Source: Sphaerochaeta associata (GTDB lineage: Bacteria; Spirochaetota; Spirochaetia; Sphaerochaetales; Sphaerochaetaceae). From it: 64,000 nucleotides of DNA. Under the pieces are notes generated by a model that had not been told where the DNA came from, ran no database searches, and saw nothing but the letters and a program-made list of their open reading frames with translations. Within the stretch, counting starts at the first letter, position 1. The number at the start of each line of letters is the position of its first letter. A program made the position numbers and the translations under genes. The DNA is taken from contig NZ_CP094929.1 of NCBI RefSeq assembly GCF_022869165.1, forward strand, positions 2,046,001 to 2,110,000. The letters run 5' to 3'. Below are positions 33,662 to 39,904 of the stretch, one piece after another.

Positions 33662-35158
33662 ATGAACAGTTATCAACTAATCACAGCCCTCGCCTTTGCC
33701 CTCTACCTTGGCCTTATGCTGGCCATCGGCTTTTTTACCTTCCGCAAAACAAAGTCCACCAGCGACTACTTCCTCGGCGGTCGTTCCATCGGTCCATGGT
33801 TTACGGCCCTCAGCGCCGAGGCATCCGACATGAGCGGATGGCTCTTGATGGGCCTTCCCGGACTCGCCTACTTTACAGGTTTGCAGGAAGCTTTCTGGAC
33901 AGCCGTAGGCCTTCTGGTGGGAACCTACCTGAACTGGCTTTTTGTAGCCAAACGAATGCGCAAGTACACCATCCATGCAAAGGACTCCATCACCATCCCC
34001 GAGTTCCTGGCAAACCGGTTCCATGACAAATCGAAAGTACTGCAGACAGTCAGCTCGATCATCATTCTCGTATTCTTCGTCGTGTATACAGCCAGTGGAT
34101 TCTTGGCCTGCGCCAAGCTCTTCACCGCTGTATTCGGCATGAACTATTATGCAGCCCTCCTTCTTGGAGTGGTGGTCATCCTCGGCTACACCCTTCTGGG
34201 AGGGTACCTCGCCGTCGTCGCTACGGATTTCGTGCAGGGCAGTCTCATGTTTGTTGCATTGGTTGCAACAGGCTTCTTTGCCTTAGTGGCGGTAGGAGGT
34301 CCTGCACACACCTTTGCAAAGCTTGGTGAATTCGGACAGCACTTCATCAACCCCTTCATAACTCCTCCGGGAACCACGTATGGATTCCTGCAGATTCTCA
34401 GTGCTCTTGCCTGGGGCTTGGGATACTTCGGCATGCCCCATATTCTGGTTCGGTTCATGTCCATCAGAAGCAACTCCGAGGTAAAAACCAGCCGCAGGAT
34501 CGCCATGGTCTGGGTTACCATTGCAATGGCGGCCGCCCTGCTCGTCGGTGTTGTCGGCAAGCTGTTCCTCCTCCCCATGACCTATGACAGCCAGAGTGCC
34601 GCCGAAGCAGTCTTCATCGCCAGCATGCAGAAGATATTCCCCACGTTCATCGCAGGTTTCTTCCTCTGTGCAATCCTCGCAGCCAGTATGAGCACCGCCG
34701 ACAGCCAGCTTCTGGTGGCCTCATCAGCCTTCAGCAAGGATGTCTACAAGGCTCTGCTCCGAAAGGACGCCTCCGACAAGGAGACGTTGCTTGTAAGTCG
34801 TGTCACCGTGATTGTCATCACCATCATCGCAATCTTTTTGGCGATGGATCCCAACTCGTCCATCTTCGATGTTGTCAGCTACGCTTGGGCTGGATTCGGT
34901 GCCACCTTCGGGCCCGTCATCATCGCAGCCCTCTTCTGGAGAAGGGCAACACGCAATGGAGCCATCGCAGCAATGGTCGGCGGCGGTGCTACGGTAATCA
35001 TTTGGAAACAGCTCTCAGGAGGACTCTTCGACGTCTATGAACTACTTCCAGGCTTCATTCTCGCCTCACTGTTGATGATCGTCTTCAGCCTTCTGGATAA
35101 AAATCCCGATAAAGCGATGCTTGCAGAATTCGATGCCTATATGGCCATCGAGGACTAG
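33662..35158 (+). CDS. putP: Sodium/solute symporter, PutP type (probable Na+/proline symporter)
   Basis: A 498-residue SSS-family transporter. The PutP hallmarks are present: DYFLGGRSIGPWFTALSAEASDMSGWLLMGLPG near residues 35-70 (the Na+ and proline site), GLGYFGMPHILVRFMSIRS, and the LAASMSTADSQLL block that contributes Na2-site serines. ATG 33662 is chosen with GGGGAG eleven bases upstream; the earlier ATG codons precede that site. Single gene with its own promoter and terminator. Confidence 0.9.
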   Translation: MNSYQLITALAFALYLGLMLAIGFFTFRKTKSTSDYFLGGRSIGPWFTALSAEASDMSGWLLMGLPGLAYFTGLQEAFWTAVGLLVGTYLNWLFVAKRMRKYTIHAKDSITIPEFLANRFHDKSKVLQTVSSIIILVFFVVYTASGFLACAKLFTAVFGMNYYAALLLGVVVILGYTLLGGYLAVVATDFVQGSLMFVALVATGFFALVAVGGPAHTFAKLGEFGQHFINPFITPPGTTYGFLQILSALAWGLGYFGMPHILVRFMSIRSNSEVKTSRRIAMVWVTIAMAAALLVGVVGKLFLLPMTYDSQSAAEAVFIASMQKIFPTFIAGFFLCAILAASMSTADSQLLVASSAFSKDVYKALLRKDASDKETLLVSRVTVIVITIIAIFLAMDPNSSIFDVVSYAWAGFGATFGPVIIAALFWRRATRNGAIAAMVGGGATVIIWKQLSGGLFDVYELLPGFILASLLMIVFSLLDKNPDKAMLAEFDAYMAIED

Positions 35159-35165
35159 AGGTGCA

Positions 35166-35190
35166 ACCGGGGAGAAATCCCCGGTTTTTT
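35166..35190 (+). terminator. Terminator after putP
   Basis: ACCGGGGA-GAAA-TCCCCGGT followed by six T. Confidence 0.9.
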
Positions 35191-35219
35191 ACTACTTCGC
35201 AAAAATTGTTACAAACCCC

Positions 35220-35248
35220 TTGACGTAAGCGAACCCGGACTTTATACT
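35220..35248 (+). promoter_or_regulatory. metYA promoter
   Basis: TTGACG (35220-35225), 17-base spacer, TATACT (35243-35248): one of the best promoter matches in the window. Transcription should start near 35255, leaving about 245 bases of leader before metY. Confidence 0.75.
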
Positions 35249-35299
35249 ACTGCATTATCCAGCCTTTCGGTAGGATATTTTACTTGGAGGAGGCACACC

Positions 35300-35365
35300 A
35301 TGATGCAGATGCAAAGCGCAACTGAATCTTCCGATCCTATGATGTGCCACATGGCACTCGCCTAA
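35300..35365 (+). CDS. Methionine-rich leader peptide, 21 codons
   Basis: ATG 35300 to TAA 35363-35365. A near-perfect ribosome site, GGAGGAGG (35286-35293), lies six bases upstream. Six of the 21 residues are Met (positions 1, 2, 4, 14, 15, 18), with one Cys (16); Met14-Met15-Cys16 lie near the end. It lies about 45 bases after the expected start of a transcript whose first full genes make methionine. A small hairpin (GTGCC-ACAT-GGCAC, 35344-35357) overlaps the last codons. I infer a leader peptide that senses charged tRNA-Met by ribosome stalling. A Met-rich metal-binding microprotein is the alternative. Confidence 0.65.
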   Translation: MMQMQSATESSDPMMCHMALA

Positions 35366-35498
35366 ACAAACTCCAAGGAACCTTCATGAAACAAGCAAAA
35401 CATCCTCGCTGTGGCTCTGTAGTCGACCACATGTGACGCTTCTGGTCTTACGCACCCCACGAACAGTCGTTCGTGCATATTTACACCAGGAGACACCT
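35366..35498 (+). promoter_or_regulatory. Candidate attenuator region of the metYA leader
   Basis: Between the Met-rich mini-ORF and metY. By eye, TGTGG (35410-35414) can pair with CCACA (35427-35431), while GACCA (35425-35429) can pair with TGGTC (35443-35447); the two stems exclude each other. A stronger hairpin, CACGAAC-AGTC-GTTCGTG (35458-35475), ends 12 bases before the metY ribosome site AGGAG (35488-35492). No U-run follows it, so control at translation or by Rho seems likelier than intrinsic termination. Confidence 0.45.
35386..35436 (+). CDS. Second mini-ORF in the metY leader, 16 codons
   Basis: ATG 35386 to TGA 35434-35436, with AAGGAA six bases upstream. The peptide reads MKQAKHPRCGSVVDHM. 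The last Met codon lies inside the alternative stem CCACA/TGTGG, so its translation would influence folding. It may be a second sensing ORF or chance. Confidence 0.35.
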   Translation: MKQAKHPRCGSVVDHM

Positions 35499-36797
35499 AT
35501 GGCTACCCATCATTTCGAAACAATCGCCCTCCATGCAGGACAGGAACAACCGGACATTGCAACCGGAGCAAGAGCAGTTCCGATCTATCAGACCACCAGT
35601 TTTGTTTTTGACAACTGCGCCCATGCCGAAGCTCGGTTCAATCTCTCTGAACCGGGTAACATCTACAGCAGATTGACCAACCCCACCCAGGAGGCCTTTG
35701 AGAAGCGCATTGCTGCCCTTGAAGGAGGCGTCGGAGCCCTTGCTGTTGCGAGTGGATCGGCTGCGATCACCTACAGCCTGCTCAATCTTGCTAGAACAGG
35801 AGACCACATCGTTTCCTCTGCCACCATCTATGGCGGTACCTACAACCTCTTCTCCCATACCCTCAGTGAGTGGGGTATCACCACCACATTCGTCGACGTT
35901 TCGAATCTGGCCGAGGTAGAAGCTGCCATCACCGAAAACACCAAGGCGCTCTTTGTGGAGACCATCGGCAACCCCAACGCAACTCTGTGCGACCTTGGGC
36001 AGTTGGCCGTCATCGCCCACCGTCACAGCATCCCCTTGGTGGTGGATAACACATTCGCTACCCCCTATCTGGTGCGACCCATCGAATTGGGCGCCGATAT
36101 TGTCGTGCACTCGGCCACCAAGTTCATCGGTGGACACGGAACCAGCCTGGGGGGTGTCATTGTAGACAGCGGCAACTTCGATTGGGAGGCAAGCGGCAGG
36201 TTCCCCTCGCTCACCGAACCCAATCCCAGCTACCACGGGATTAGCTTCACCCAGGCCTGCGGTCGGGCTGCTTTCATCACCAAGGCACGGGCGGTGATCC
36301 TGAGGGACACCGGTGCATGCCTGTCCCCTTTCCACTCCTTCTTTTTCCTCCAAGGCCTTGAAACCCTCGCCCTGCGAGTAGCCCGCCACGTTGAGAACAC
36401 AGAAAAAGTGGTTGATTTCCTTTCGAAGCATCCTGGTGTTGCAACAGTCAGGCATCCCTTGCTCGCAGACAATCCCTACCATGGGCTGTACAAGCGGTAT
36501 TTTCCCAAAGGAGGCATCAGCATCTTCACCTTCGACATACAAGGGACCGAAAAGCAGGCAAGAGCCTTCATCGACTCGCTCAAGCTCTTCAGCCTGCTTG
36601 CCAATGTGGCGGATGTGAAGTCGCTGGTAATCCATCCTGCGACCACCACCCACTCCCAGCTGACAACCCAAGAGCAGATCAGCCAGGGAATACAGGGCAC
36701 GACCATCCGTCTCTCCATCGGGTGTGAACACGCACAGGACCTCATCGACGACCTGGCCCAGGCCTTCGACGCAATAGGAGGCTCTCCATGCCGGTGA
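35499..36797 (+). CDS. metY: O-acetylhomoserine sulfhydrylase
   Basis: A 432-residue PLP enzyme of the Cys/Met metabolism family, which makes homocysteine from O-acetylhomoserine and sulphide. The start is ATG 35499 with AGGAG six bases upstream (MATHHFETIALHAGQ). The PLP lysine is in VVHSATKFIGGHGTS near residue 206. The length (about 430) and the long mid-domain favour MetY over cystathionine gamma-synthase (about 380). It overlaps metA by ten bases. Confidence 0.92.
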   Translation: MATHHFETIALHAGQEQPDIATGARAVPIYQTTSFVFDNCAHAEARFNLSEPGNIYSRLTNPTQEAFEKRIAALEGGVGALAVASGSAAITYSLLNLARTGDHIVSSATIYGGTYNLFSHTLSEWGITTTFVDVSNLAEVEAAITENTKALFVETIGNPNATLCDLGQLAVIAHRHSIPLVVDNTFATPYLVRPIELGADIVVHSATKFIGGHGTSLGGVIVDSGNFDWEASGRFPSLTEPNPSYHGISFTQACGRAAFITKARAVILRDTGACLSPFHSFFFLQGLETLALRVARHVENTEKVVDFLSKHPGVATVRHPLLADNPYHGLYKRYFPKGGISIFTFDIQGTEKQARAFIDSLKLFSLLANVADVKSLVIHPATTTHSQLTTQEQISQGIQGTTIRLSIGCEHAQDLIDDLAQAFDAIGGSPCR

Positions 36798-37711
36798 CAA
36801 TCCCCCAAGACCTGCCTGCCGCCGAAGTGCTCAAGCAGGAGAACATCTTCTTCATGACCAAGGAACGGGCCATTCACCAGGATATCAGGCCGTTGCAGAT
36901 AGCTCTGCTCAACCTCATGCCGAACAAGATTCGTACCGAGGAGCAGTTCCTCAGATTGTTGGGAAACACCGCTTTGCAGGTTGAACTGACATTTCTTACT
37001 ACAGCGACATACCAAAGCAAACACACTCCCATCTCCTATCTACAGACCTTCTACCAGACATTCGAACAGGTACGAGGGAGCCATTTCGATGCCCTGATCA
37101 TCACCGGGAGCCCGGTTGAGACGCTTGCCTTTGAAGAGGTAGCCTACTGGAAGGAACTTACCGAGATCCTTGCGTGGGCCGATGAACATGTGTATTCGTC
37201 CTTCTTTGTATGTTGGGCGGCCCAGGCCGCCCTCTACCACCACTATGGCATCGAAAAACATTTGCTTCCCAAGAAGCTTTCCGGCGTCTACAGCCATACA
37301 GTGAAGCAGAAAGGACACCCACTGGTCCGCGGCTTCGACGACTTTTTCTGGGCGCCGCACTCGCGCAATACGGCAGTCGATGAGACAAAGCTGTCTTCTG
37401 TTCAAGACTTGATTGTCTTGTCGGACTCAGAAGAGGCGGGGCTGTATCTTGCAGCAAGCAAGGATGGGAGGAAGGTGTTCGTCACCGGTCACAGCGAGTA
37501 CGATGAGCTGACTTTGCATGATGAGTACCAACGCGACCTTGCAGCAGCACTGAATCCGGAGAAACCCTTGAATTATTATCAAGGTGACGAGGTGACGGTG
37601 CGCTGGCGGGGCCATGCTCACCTTCTGTTCAGCAACTGGCTGAACTACCATATCTACCAGAGTACGCCGTATCAGTTGGATCAGATCAGCAAGGTCTTGC
37701 AGCACAGCTGA
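36788..37711 (+). CDS. metA: Homoserine O-acetyltransferase (MetA family)
   Basis: A 307-residue MetA-type acyltransferase with the nucleophile Cys142 in FVCWAAQAAL, His in GHSEYD and Glu in the LHDEYQRD block. Residue 111 is Glu (GSPVE); in this family Glu111 goes with acetyl-CoA and Gly111 with succinyl-CoA, so the product should be O-acetylhomoserine, the substrate of the overlapping metY. The two thus form a complete step from homoserine to homocysteine. The 3' end overlaps the convergent mtnP-like gene by 31 bases. Confidence 0.93.
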   Translation: MPVTIPQDLPAAEVLKQENIFFMTKERAIHQDIRPLQIALLNLMPNKIRTEEQFLRLLGNTALQVELTFLTTATYQSKHTPISYLQTFYQTFEQVRGSHFDALIITGSPVETLAFEEVAYWKELTEILAWADEHVYSSFFVCWAAQAALYHHYGIEKHLLPKKLSGVYSHTVKQKGHPLVRGFDDFFWAPHSRNTAVDETKLSSVQDLIVLSDSEEAGLYLAASKDGRKVFVTGHSEYDELTLHDEYQRDLAAALNPEKPLNYYQGDEVTVRWRGHAHLLFSNWLNYHIYQSTPYQLDQISKVLQHS

Positions 37712-38379
37712 GTCATCTCTTCCCTCAAAACGGCAATCTGCTCATCACCTATGAAGCTCACATTCGCCTGCTCGACTCCTGCAGCCCAGTTGATGCTGTA
37801 TGCAAGAGCGAGCGTGCGGATGCCGGCTTCCCTTAAAAGCGACACTTCGGTGGACAGTGTCATTCCCACCACATCACAACCCAACCGAGCGTACAGGCGG
37901 ATTTCAGCCTTTGTCTCAAGCCGCGGACCGTTTGTGCATACATACACTCCGGCGTCCTTAAGCCGGGGGCTCAGTGTTTGCATCCGTTCCTTCAATGATG
38001 CATCGAACACATCGTCCATCGGGATGTGGCGCACCCCGCTTTCGCCTCCGGTATAAAAGGTCTGCTCCCGCGATCCCCCGGTAAAATCGACAAAGTCTGA
38101 AACCATGCCTATTTCTCCGGGTTTCAATGCCGAGGAAATGGAACCTACTGCATAGATTCCGATAGCCTGATCCACCCCCAATTCGGTAAGTGCAGCAACG
38201 TTTGCACGATAGTTGACCAAATGCGGCGGCAAAGAGTGGGACGATCCGTGGCGGGGAAGAAAAACCAATCGGTCGCCGACAAACAGCTCAACCTCCCCAT
38301 ACAGGGTTTGTACCAATGTTCGCTTGAGAGGGATGCCGTCCAAGGCATCGACGCCTGTTCCTCCAATAATTGCTTTCAC
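37681..38379 (-). CDS. mtnP: 5'-methylthioadenosine/methylthioinosine phosphorylase
   Basis: A 232-residue nucleoside phosphorylase of the PNP/MTAP trimeric family. Phosphate site GGTG (7-9) and PRHG (42-45), ribose-side GPRLETKAEI and VGMTLSTEVSLLREAGI are present. In adenine-specific MTAPs two Asp residues follow in TDYD; here the place reads SINWAAG with Asn197 and Ala199, a pattern that fits 6-oxopurines (methylthioinosine phosphorylases). Start GTG 38379 has AAGGAG seven bases upstream and overlaps the mtnA stop (GTGA). Releases methylthioribose-1-phosphate for the upstream isomerase. Confidence 0.87.
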   Translation of the reverse strand: MKAIIGGTGVDALDGIPLKRTLVQTLYGEVELFVGDRLVFLPRHGSSHSLPPHLVNYRANVAALTELGVDQAIGIYAVGSISSALKPGEIGMVSDFVDFTGGSREQTFYTGGESGVRHIPMDDVFDASLKERMQTLSPRLKDAGVYVCTNGPRLETKAEIRLYARLGCDVVGMTLSTEVSLLREAGIRTLALAYSINWAAGVEQANVSFIGDEQIAVLREEMTQLCCKTLLI

Positions 38380-39398
38380 TGAAAGCTCCTTTTCACCTGT
38401 TCCGGCTTGAGTATGCCTTTGGGGGTCACCAAGGCGGTAACCAAAGCCGGCGGGATAATGTCGAATGCCGGATAGAGGCCCCCTATGGAATCCAAGGTCG
38501 TGGGAAGCCCCATGCACCGTGTAATTTCCTTGGGAGACCTCATTTCCATGTTCACATCGTCCCTTCCTTGTTTCGTTTGGTCGGGGGAGATGCTGAAGGC
38601 ATAGTAAGGGACACCGATGTAACGGGCGGCGATGGCGTTGGAGAGGGTCCCCACCTTGTTCACCACCGTACCATCCATGCAGAGAAGGTCGACAGCGGTC
38701 ATGTATGCATCAACCTTTCCTTCCACGAGGAACGTTGCGCCCATGCCGTCGGTGACGACCTGCACTTTGATGCCCATCTCCTCAAGGCTTGGGGCCGTCA
38801 GTCGCGAACCCTGAAGATAGGGACGGGTCTCATTGGCCAGTACCCGTATCTTCTTTCCACTCTCTTGTGCATAGGCAAGGGAGAGCAAAAACGTATGCTC
38901 TGCAAAACACGTAGTAAGCACCACCGAATCCTGATCCAAAAGCGTACTTCCCATCCGTCCCATCTGATGATACAACCGGTCAAAGCCGTCAAGTATGGAT
39001 TGCACCTGCCGTCCTACTGCTTGGGCAAGCTCATCAGGATCGGAAGCAAACATCCGTACTTGGGCGAGCAAACCTTGCAGGGTCCGCTGCATGGTCGTAT
39101 TGGTCGGTCTGGCTGCAATGAGTTGGTCAGCCGCATCGGCAAGTGTTGAAAACCCGCTTGGGAGGTCCCCGCTTTGCATCTGTCTTGTTACGAAAACCAT
39201 GGTCTGCAATGCAACCTCAAGAGGACCTCCCCCTTGTGTCACCATCGAGCGCAGGGCTTGGGCGACCTGAGCAACAGAGCTGCATACCTCAAACCGTTTT
39301 TCGAAGGGGAACACCCTGCGGTCCCCGATGAGAATGTTCCCGCCTTCCAAACGGCAGATATTTTCATGTTTGAGCAGATAGGGAAGCTCGATCATCAA
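38376..39398 (-). CDS. mtnA: Methylthioribose-1-phosphate isomerase-like protein (eIF2B/MtnA family)
   Basis: A 340-residue protein of the MtnA/eIF2B fold. The catalytic Cys (C164 in LTTCFAEH) and Asp (D237 in AVDLLCMDGTVVNKVGT) are in place. The N-terminal Arg of the usual RGAPAIG motif is replaced by Gln55 (TQGGGPLEVA), so substrate binding may differ from classical MtnA. ATG 39398 overlaps the stop of the deaminase gene (ATGA), and the stop overlaps the mtnP-like start. Should turn methylthioribose-1-phosphate into methylthioribulose-1-phosphate; ribose-1,5-bisphosphate isomerase-like activity is the alternative. Confidence 0.82.
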   Translation of the reverse strand: MMIELPYLLKHENICRLEGGNILIGDRRVFPFEKRFEVCSSVAQVAQALRSMVTQGGGPLEVALQTMVFVTRQMQSGDLPSGFSTLADAADQLIAARPTNTTMQRTLQGLLAQVRMFASDPDELAQAVGRQVQSILDGFDRLYHQMGRMGSTLLDQDSVVLTTCFAEHTFLLSLAYAQESGKKIRVLANETRPYLQGSRLTAPSLEEMGIKVQVVTDGMGATFLVEGKVDAYMTAVDLLCMDGTVVNKVGTLSNAIAARYIGVPYYAFSISPDQTKQGRDDVNMEMRSPKEITRCMGLPTTLDSIGGLYPAFDIIPPALVTALVTPKGILKPEQVKRSFQ

Positions 39399-39904
39399 TG
39401 CACCCAGAAGGAGAGATGGTCGGCGATGATCGCTTGTTCAAGATCCTTATCATCGGTGGGTCCCACCACCTCGATGTCCTTCTGTCCGTGGGCAAGCACC
39501 TCGTGGCTGGGCAGATCGAAGGTGGGATTCTGTTCATCGGCACCAGTCAGCTCAAGCAGCTTCGCTTCGGTGATGCCGAAGACAAGCCTGCGGACATTGG
39601 TCCAGTACATGGCGCCGGTACACATCACACAGGGCTCGGCATTGGTATAGAGCGTGCAGGTGGAGAGAAAGGCCGGATCGTACAGCTTGCCTGCCTTGAA
39701 AAGAAGCAGGGTTTCGGCGTGCATTGCAGAGCCTCCTTCCTCATAACTGTTCTCCTGTTCAAGCAGGATGTTGCCGTCCTTGTCGGCCAGCAAGGCTCCG
39801 AAGGGGTGGTTCCCCTTGCGTTTCGCCTGCGCAGCGATACGCACCGTCTCATATAAAAGGTGTATGTCCTGTGCATTGGGAATACTGCGTGTAATAGTGC
39901 TCAT
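39395..39904 (-). CDS. CDA-superfamily nucleoside/base deaminase (guanine deaminase-like)
   Basis: A 169-residue zinc deaminase. The zinc ligands and proton shuttle are H62-A-E64 and P91-C92-V-M-C95, with NHPFGALL before them, the pattern of the guanine deaminase/TadA group. It is the first gene of a fully overlapping operon with the mtnA- and mtnP-like genes, so its substrate is probably methylthioadenosine, or adenine released from it, rather than guanine or tRNA. That is inference from context. Strong ribosome site AAGGAGAA before ATG 39904. Confidence 0.85.
   Translation of the reverse strand: MSTITRSIPNAQDIHLLYETVRIAAQAKRKGNHPFGALLADKDGNILLEQENSYEEGGSAMHAETLLLFKAGKLYDPAFLSTCTLYTNAEPCVMCTGAMYWTNVRRLVFGITEAKLLELTGADEQNPTFDLPSHEVLAHGQKDIEVVGPTDDKDLEQAIIADHLSFWVH

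Follow-up and report, generated by a model that had tools for sequence, protein, structure and literature searches.

How is the metY-metA operon of Sphaerochaeta associata controlled, and what are the methionine codons doing that crowd a very short reading frame ahead of it? The question arises in a window of 64,000 nucleotides of contig NZ_CP094929.1 (the whole stretch analysed; positions count from its first base), in which an earlier note had described a 21-codon frame with six Met codons and had read it as a ribosome-stalling leader. We consider it probable that the leader of metY-metA, which encodes two small peptides, acts as a cascaded translational attenuator. The more specific reading, that its two stages read methionine via elongator tRNA-Met, we regard as evenly poised; if it is right, this would be the first methionine sensor built on leader peptides and, for spirochaetes, the first such cascade serving an amino acid. 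The features on which the argument is built are collected in Table 1.

Table 1. Features of the metY-metA leader and adjoining genes, in window positions
Feature	Position	Strand	Basis or remark
Terminator of the preceding (symporter) gene	35165-35186		Upstream of the promoter
Sigma-70-like promoter, TTGACG-17 nt-TATACT	35220..35248	+	Sequence scan; upstream of ORF1
H1, 5' hairpin (TATCC/GGATA, GCC/GGT)	35256..35277	+	Fold, alignment; predicted mRNA 5' end
H2 left arm, CTTGGAG, overlapping the ORF1 ribosome site	35283..35289	+	Fold; pairs with 35371-35377
Shine-Dalgarno of ORF1, GGAGGAGG	35286..35293	+	Six bases before the ATG; conserved in aligned leaders
H2b left arm, GGCACA	35292..35297	+	Pairs with TGTGCC, 35343-35348, in ORF1 (Met15-Cys16 codons)
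ORF1, leader peptide MMQMQSATESSDPMMCHMALA (then stop)	35300..35365	+	Translation; conservation in relatives
H2 right arm, CTCCAAG, overlapping the ORF2 ribosome site	35371..35377	+	Fold, clade permutation
ORF2 ribosome site, AAGGA	35375-35379	+	
ORF2, leader peptide MKQAKHPRCGSVVDHM (then stop)	35386..35436	+	Coding selection, relatives; better conserved than ORF1
H3, hairpin within ORF2 (TCGC/GTGA, TGTGG/CCACA)	35406..35436	+	Fold
Invariant Met codon 16 of ORF2	35431-35433	+	Eight clade representatives
Anti-Shine-Dalgarno, CTTCTGGT (H4 left arm)	35439..35446	+	Begins 8 nt downstream of the first Met16 nucleotide
Apical hairpin within H4, CACGAAC-AGTC-GTTCGTG	35458..35475	+	Fold, alignment; missing in some clades
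metY Shine-Dalgarno region, ACCAGGAG (H4 right arm)	35485..35492	+	Paired with the anti-Shine-Dalgarno
metY, O-acetylhomoserine sulfhydrylase, candidate controlled gene	35499..36797	+	TIGR01326, 621.5 bits (cut-off 495.1)
metA-family homoserine acyltransferase, overlapping the metY end	36788..37711	+	NF047918, TIGR01001

Translation bore out the description of the first frame, ORF1, whose six Met codons include tandem pairs at codons 1-2 and 14-15, and the ribosome site claimed for it is a good one. Its Met-richness lies beyond chance: of the window's 884 small ORFs, no other that is 25 codons long or shorter has as many as five non-start Met codons, and 60 shuffled windows contained no such frame. 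Loss of the frame in relatives had been named as a way to refute the reading, and ORF1 passed that test, since the frame, its ribosome site and its Met-richness are all kept, with drift in much of the sequence between the Met codons. Every clade has three to six Met codons in ORF1, at drifting positions, and the ORF1s of the near relatives L020, L023 and L024 differ by in-frame indels of whole codons. One Met-Cys pair is kept in every ORF1, with the Cys invariant after that Met; because these codons pair with a segment behind the ORF1 ribosome site, their invariance need not mean selection on the peptide. The pair lies 11 to 14 codons from the start, from which we infer that there is room for one queued ribosome. 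A profile search against NCBIfam and Pfam returned no match for ORF1 or for the second frame described below, though at 16-21 residues such peptides are barely long enough for this kind of search.

The methionine genes that the note had placed downstream were recovered. metY scores above the cut-off of its family model, and for the MetA-family gene NF047918 and TIGR01001 are by far the best NCBIfam models, at 444 and 436 bits, slightly under their respective cut-offs of 460.5 and 495. Upstream, the TTGAC of the promoter is kept in all aligned leaders of the genus, and the transcript is predicted to start at about 35254. Convergent to metYA, on the minus strand at 37681-39904, lie genes whose products resemble a methylthioadenosine/methylthioinosine phosphorylase, the isomerase MtnA and the deaminase TadA; they may form a methylthioadenosine salvage cluster adjoining the methionine genes.

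Beyond the single leader described before, we identified a second frame, ORF2, and a set of RNA pairings. Over codons 2-16 of ORF2 in eight clade representatives, pS is 0.71 and pN 0.27, and reading the same bases in a shifted frame reverses the pattern. Asp14 and Met16 are unvarying in all eight clades, with Met always at codon 16, and the preceding residues R-C-G-S-V-x-D are conserved despite synonymous drift. The ORF2 of L017 has RNGAST instead of RCGSVT and still contains D-H-M. Judged by this coding selection in ORF2 and by the in-frame indels of ORF1, short frames upstream of the target gene are present as in a leader-peptide translational attenuator, and both look translated. In the clade of L005-L008 (genomes G007, G008, G024 and G002), ORF2 continues past Met16 to a length of 49 to 80 codons and overlaps the metY start out of frame, suggesting direct translational coupling between ORF2 and metY there.

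The minimum-energy fold of 35255-35510 has -69.7 kcal/mol (z -2.3), and H1, H2, H2b, H3 and H4 all appear in it unprompted. For three of them we compared pairing within each genome with pairing between arms swapped among eight clade representatives, by permutation; the stretches had been picked after the pairings were seen by eye, and identical stretches served for own and swapped pairs. Own-genome pairing was stronger for H4 (-10.1 vs -6.9 kcal/mol, p=0.0006) and for H2 (-13.5 vs -11.2 kcal/mol, p=0.006). The swap test of H2b gave p=0.40; covariation cannot be shown for this helix because its core is invariant. The arms of H4 read CTTCTGGT/ACCAGGAG in the window, CTTCTGAA/TTCAGGAG in L010, CTCTTGTTG/CAACAGGAG in L017 and CTTCCTTC/GAAGGAAG in L020. 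From 15 leaders RNAalifold recovered H2 with compensatory changes and missed H4, whose arms are offset by a single alignment column from clade to clade. No local anti-Shine-Dalgarno is seen in the three long-leader clades (L018/L022, L019 and L021). In L018 and L022 the gap between ORF1 and ORF2 is 173-175 bases, and the codons that close ORF2 (GATCGAATG) show complementarity to CATTCGATC, directly upstream of the metY ribosome site, a different geometry with possibly a similar effect.

No intrinsic terminator-like site was found on the plus strand from 35190 to 35499, so that translational control fits better than transcription attenuation; the choice between intrinsic terminator and antiterminator that a classical attenuator offers ahead of its first gene was not seen in this leader. 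The attenuator reading of the earlier note is kept, as a probably translational one. Near the predicted transcript start, at the position of H1, lies an inverted repeat whose right arm resembles GGTAGG or AGGTTT, and in one clade H1 is swapped for CCGGGC/GCCCGG or CCGGAC/GTCCGG. Similar repeats stand before metY in L026 (for example CCTACCAGGTTGGTAGG), L150, L152, L153, L155 and L157, even in genera without leader ORFs, and may serve as an operator or fold into a 5' hairpin. It is conceivable, and in our estimate very improbable, that transcription attenuation or a transcription factor bound at this repeat controls the operon and that the small ORFs are secondary: the recurrence of the repeat, in altered form, in genera that have no such ORFs (L026, L150-L155) speaks for it, but the missing intrinsic terminator between ORF1 and metY does not agree with it, nor does the covariation that ties the ribosome sites together.

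To relate the pairings to translation, a ribosome footprint was moved along ORF2 in a model, and the opening energy of the metY site was computed for each A-site codon. The footprint was assumed to extend, from the first nucleotide of the A-site codon, some 15 bases upstream and 12 downstream. For clades A to E the metY site is predicted to stay closed until the A site stands at ORF2 codons 14 to 16, where its opening energy drops from about 7-13 to about 1.5-4 kcal/mol (five of eight clades); by this profile, Met16 marks the earliest point where a pausing ribosome would set metY free. Of 200 spacer shuffles for each of clades A to E, 8, 8, 2, 3 and 0 reached the native closed state, as did 19 of 200 for L018. 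In L018 the modelled profile does not single out Met16, and in L022, L019 and L021 the effect is slight, which leaves five of the eight clades in support of the geometry. In the same proportion of clades, H4 covariation and the opening profile together indicate a sequestered target site that a leader ribosome could break open. As for the first step, a ribosome on ORF1 is predicted to ease access to the ORF2 site in L010 (from 8.6 to 2.4 kcal/mol) and L020 (from 7.1 to 3.9 kcal/mol) and hardly to alter it in the window (from 2.9 to 2.3 kcal/mol); by these calculations the passage from ORF1 to ORF2 is the weaker part of the cascade. The leader of the earlier note is real and conserved, but it is one of two, and the helix predicted to hide the metY ribosome site adjoins the Met codon of the other.

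The arrangement is widespread in the genus. We examined 26 genus genomes, one per species, and found both ORFs directly before metY in all 23 that have a readable metY leader; of the others, G014 and G004 are without a close metY match, and in G020 metY is cut by the contig end. A covariance model of the leader detected one copy per genome, at metY, in the 23, and no convincing copy away from metY in the 26. Another genus in the same family (G179, L149) also has both frames before metY, with MMSMSMTDSPDGMMCRRA as ORF1 and MKNASCPRCRSVKDRMGF as ORF2. Further genera of the family (L151, L154, L156, L163, L164 and L165) have only an ORF2-like peptide there, such as one beginning MSRAYNTYHRYGSVRSSM or the complete MNRKQTTMLFRCSSVRDRMRA. 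Four of these loci show complementarity between the ribosome sites of ORF2 and metY (-12 to -18 kcal/mol), a suggestive likeness that stands on complementarity without covariation. In L151, L154, L156 and L163, where the single leader ORF has a ribosome site complementary to metY's, metY lies behind a small gene for a putative ribosomal protein S21-like product and its terminator. Across 297 genomes of the class, a strict ORF2 DNA pattern matched only in the genus and the covariance model gave strong matches only in the genus; its three weak matches elsewhere (E 0.002-0.007 per genome) equal the chance expectation over 297 genomes. No significant ORF2-like peptide was found before metY outside the family in 83 upstream regions, Clostridia, Bifidobacterium, Streptococcus and Treponema included.

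Given these results, we propose that without ribosomes the ORF1 site would be paired with the ORF2 site through H2, and the metY site with the segment right behind ORF2 through H4. When methionyl-tRNA is plentiful, ribosomes would cross both leaders quickly, H2 and H4 would re-form and metY would be poorly translated. When it is scarce, ribosomes would pause at Met codons of ORF1, either near the start or at the MMC motif with a queued ribosome behind, and would thereby block the ORF1 site and leave the ORF2 site open. Translation of ORF2 would then pause at Met16, where the front edge of the ribosome would cover the anti-Shine-Dalgarno segment, and the freed metY site would allow metY-metA to be translated. 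Charged tRNA-Met is the candidate signal, to judge from the codon content, the controlled gene and the direction of the response: since a stall would switch metY on, scarcity should cause the stall. ORF2 has an invariant Met codon at the very place where a halted ribosome would expose the metY start site, and so the pair of ORFs has the look of a sensor that gauges methionine supply in two steps. A point against this reading is that Met starts every protein, so that deep Met starvation would limit initiation too.

The pairings alone link translation of ORF2 to metY, and in the four genomes with extended frames ORF2 overlaps metY out of frame. Both facts would suit a plain translational coupling, in which translation of ORF1 and ORF2 opens the metY site, so that output is constant or follows overall translation and no amino acid is sensed. 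We judge this improbable, as it leaves unexplained the Met enrichment of ORF1, found in every clade, as well as the invariance of Met16 and its exact position.

The conserved R-C-G-S-V of ORF2 and the invariant Cys of ORF1 exceed what sensing by Met codons needs. The conservation of the ORF2 residues through synonymous drift, the constant distance of Met16 from the ORF2 start within the genus, and the relatives that read on past Met16 rather than stop would all be expected if ORF2, and perhaps ORF1, were an arrest peptide of the TnaC/SpeFL type, stalling at Met16 on a small molecule and so freeing the metY site. We think nascent-chain arrest of this kind unlikely, if less so than simple coupling: L017 retains D-H-M with RNGAST for RCGSVT upstream, and since a stall turns metY on, methionine or SAM as inducer would have the wrong sign, so that the arrest signal would have to be a precursor or sulfide.

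Cysteine, which occurs in both peptides of nearly all genomes, is a live alternative to methionine or a co-signal. In its full form, with the leaders sensing cysteine or both sulfur amino acids and the ORF1 Met-Cys and ORF2 Cys codons being the critical ones, this proposal has in our view a low probability. It would account for the Cys that follows Met in the conserved pair of every ORF1 and for the ORF2 Cys, present in all genus genomes but one, and MetY-type enzymes can make cysteine too, as the family name of TIGR01326 has it. But the ORF2 Cys is lost in L017 and several other genera that retain the Met, and by the opening profile a stall at this Cys, codon 9, would be too far upstream to uncover the metY site.

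The earlier note had remarked that SAM riboswitches would be expected in spirochaetes; the SAM-I riboswitch was absent from 26 of 26 genus genomes, and an Rfam covariance scan of 34000-38000 gave no match up to E=5 to any known riboswitch, T-box or leader family. One T-box per genome was found in 24 of the 26. That of the window's genome (G000:C1:3328600-3328847; L174 1501-1748, minus strand) lies before a threonyl-tRNA synthetase-like (thrS-like) gene and scores 91 bits, just under the 93-bit cut-off. A literature search among open-licence papers found no methionine leader-peptide system described. Leader-peptide sensors are known for many amino acids, and one that reads methionine codons must work although Met starts every protein.

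The trp, his, leu and ilv attenuators have a leader ORF rich in codons of the operon's own amino acid and switch a transcription terminator. The metY-metA leader resembles them in the enrichment of codons for the product amino acid and differs in having two ORFs instead of one and a helix that hides a ribosome site, with no terminator found. The arrest peptides TnaC and SpeFL sense free Trp or ornithine, unlike the sensor proposed here; the likeness is that of a conserved short peptide with a stall proposed at its last codons, and no sequence similarity is claimed.

Among sulfur-metabolism genes, short leader ORFs with sulfur-amino-acid codons likewise precede the cys operons of Actinobacteria, with their Cys leader peptides (PMC1262725), and cysS, with the uORF motif uORFC-8-2 (PMC8632094), but these involve Cys, other phyla and a single ORF, and their mechanism is unsettled or transcriptional. 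The actinobacterial survey reported no conserved RNA structure before methionine operons (PMC1262725), and a survey that looked for structured RNAs and uORFs, in spirochaetes among other groups, mentions neither metY nor methionine in its main text (PMC8632094). Described methionine control consists of repressors, SAM riboswitches or T-boxes (PMC4239095 among other sources); proteobacterial metY is under MetJ or SAM-II control, with SAM-II before metY in alpha-proteobacteria (PMC4239095). Like SAM-I, SAM-II and Met T-boxes, the leader studied here would be a 5' RNA that controls the same genes, metY included.

The closest architectural parallel is ermA, for which stalling on ermAL1 is proposed to activate ermAL2, and stalling on ermAL2 to lead to ermA translation (PMC8274638). 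Both loci have two short ORFs before the target and a proposed stall cascade, but erm leaders stall through macrolide-bound ribosomes, whereas the signal suspected for metY-metA lies in a Met codon, and these genes serve methionine synthesis. The likeness would be one of working and architecture, and we claim no kinship of sequence. A two-leader cascade would be a rare architecture outside antibiotic-resistance genes, and the genus provides a natural alignment with covariation that makes the mechanism testable.
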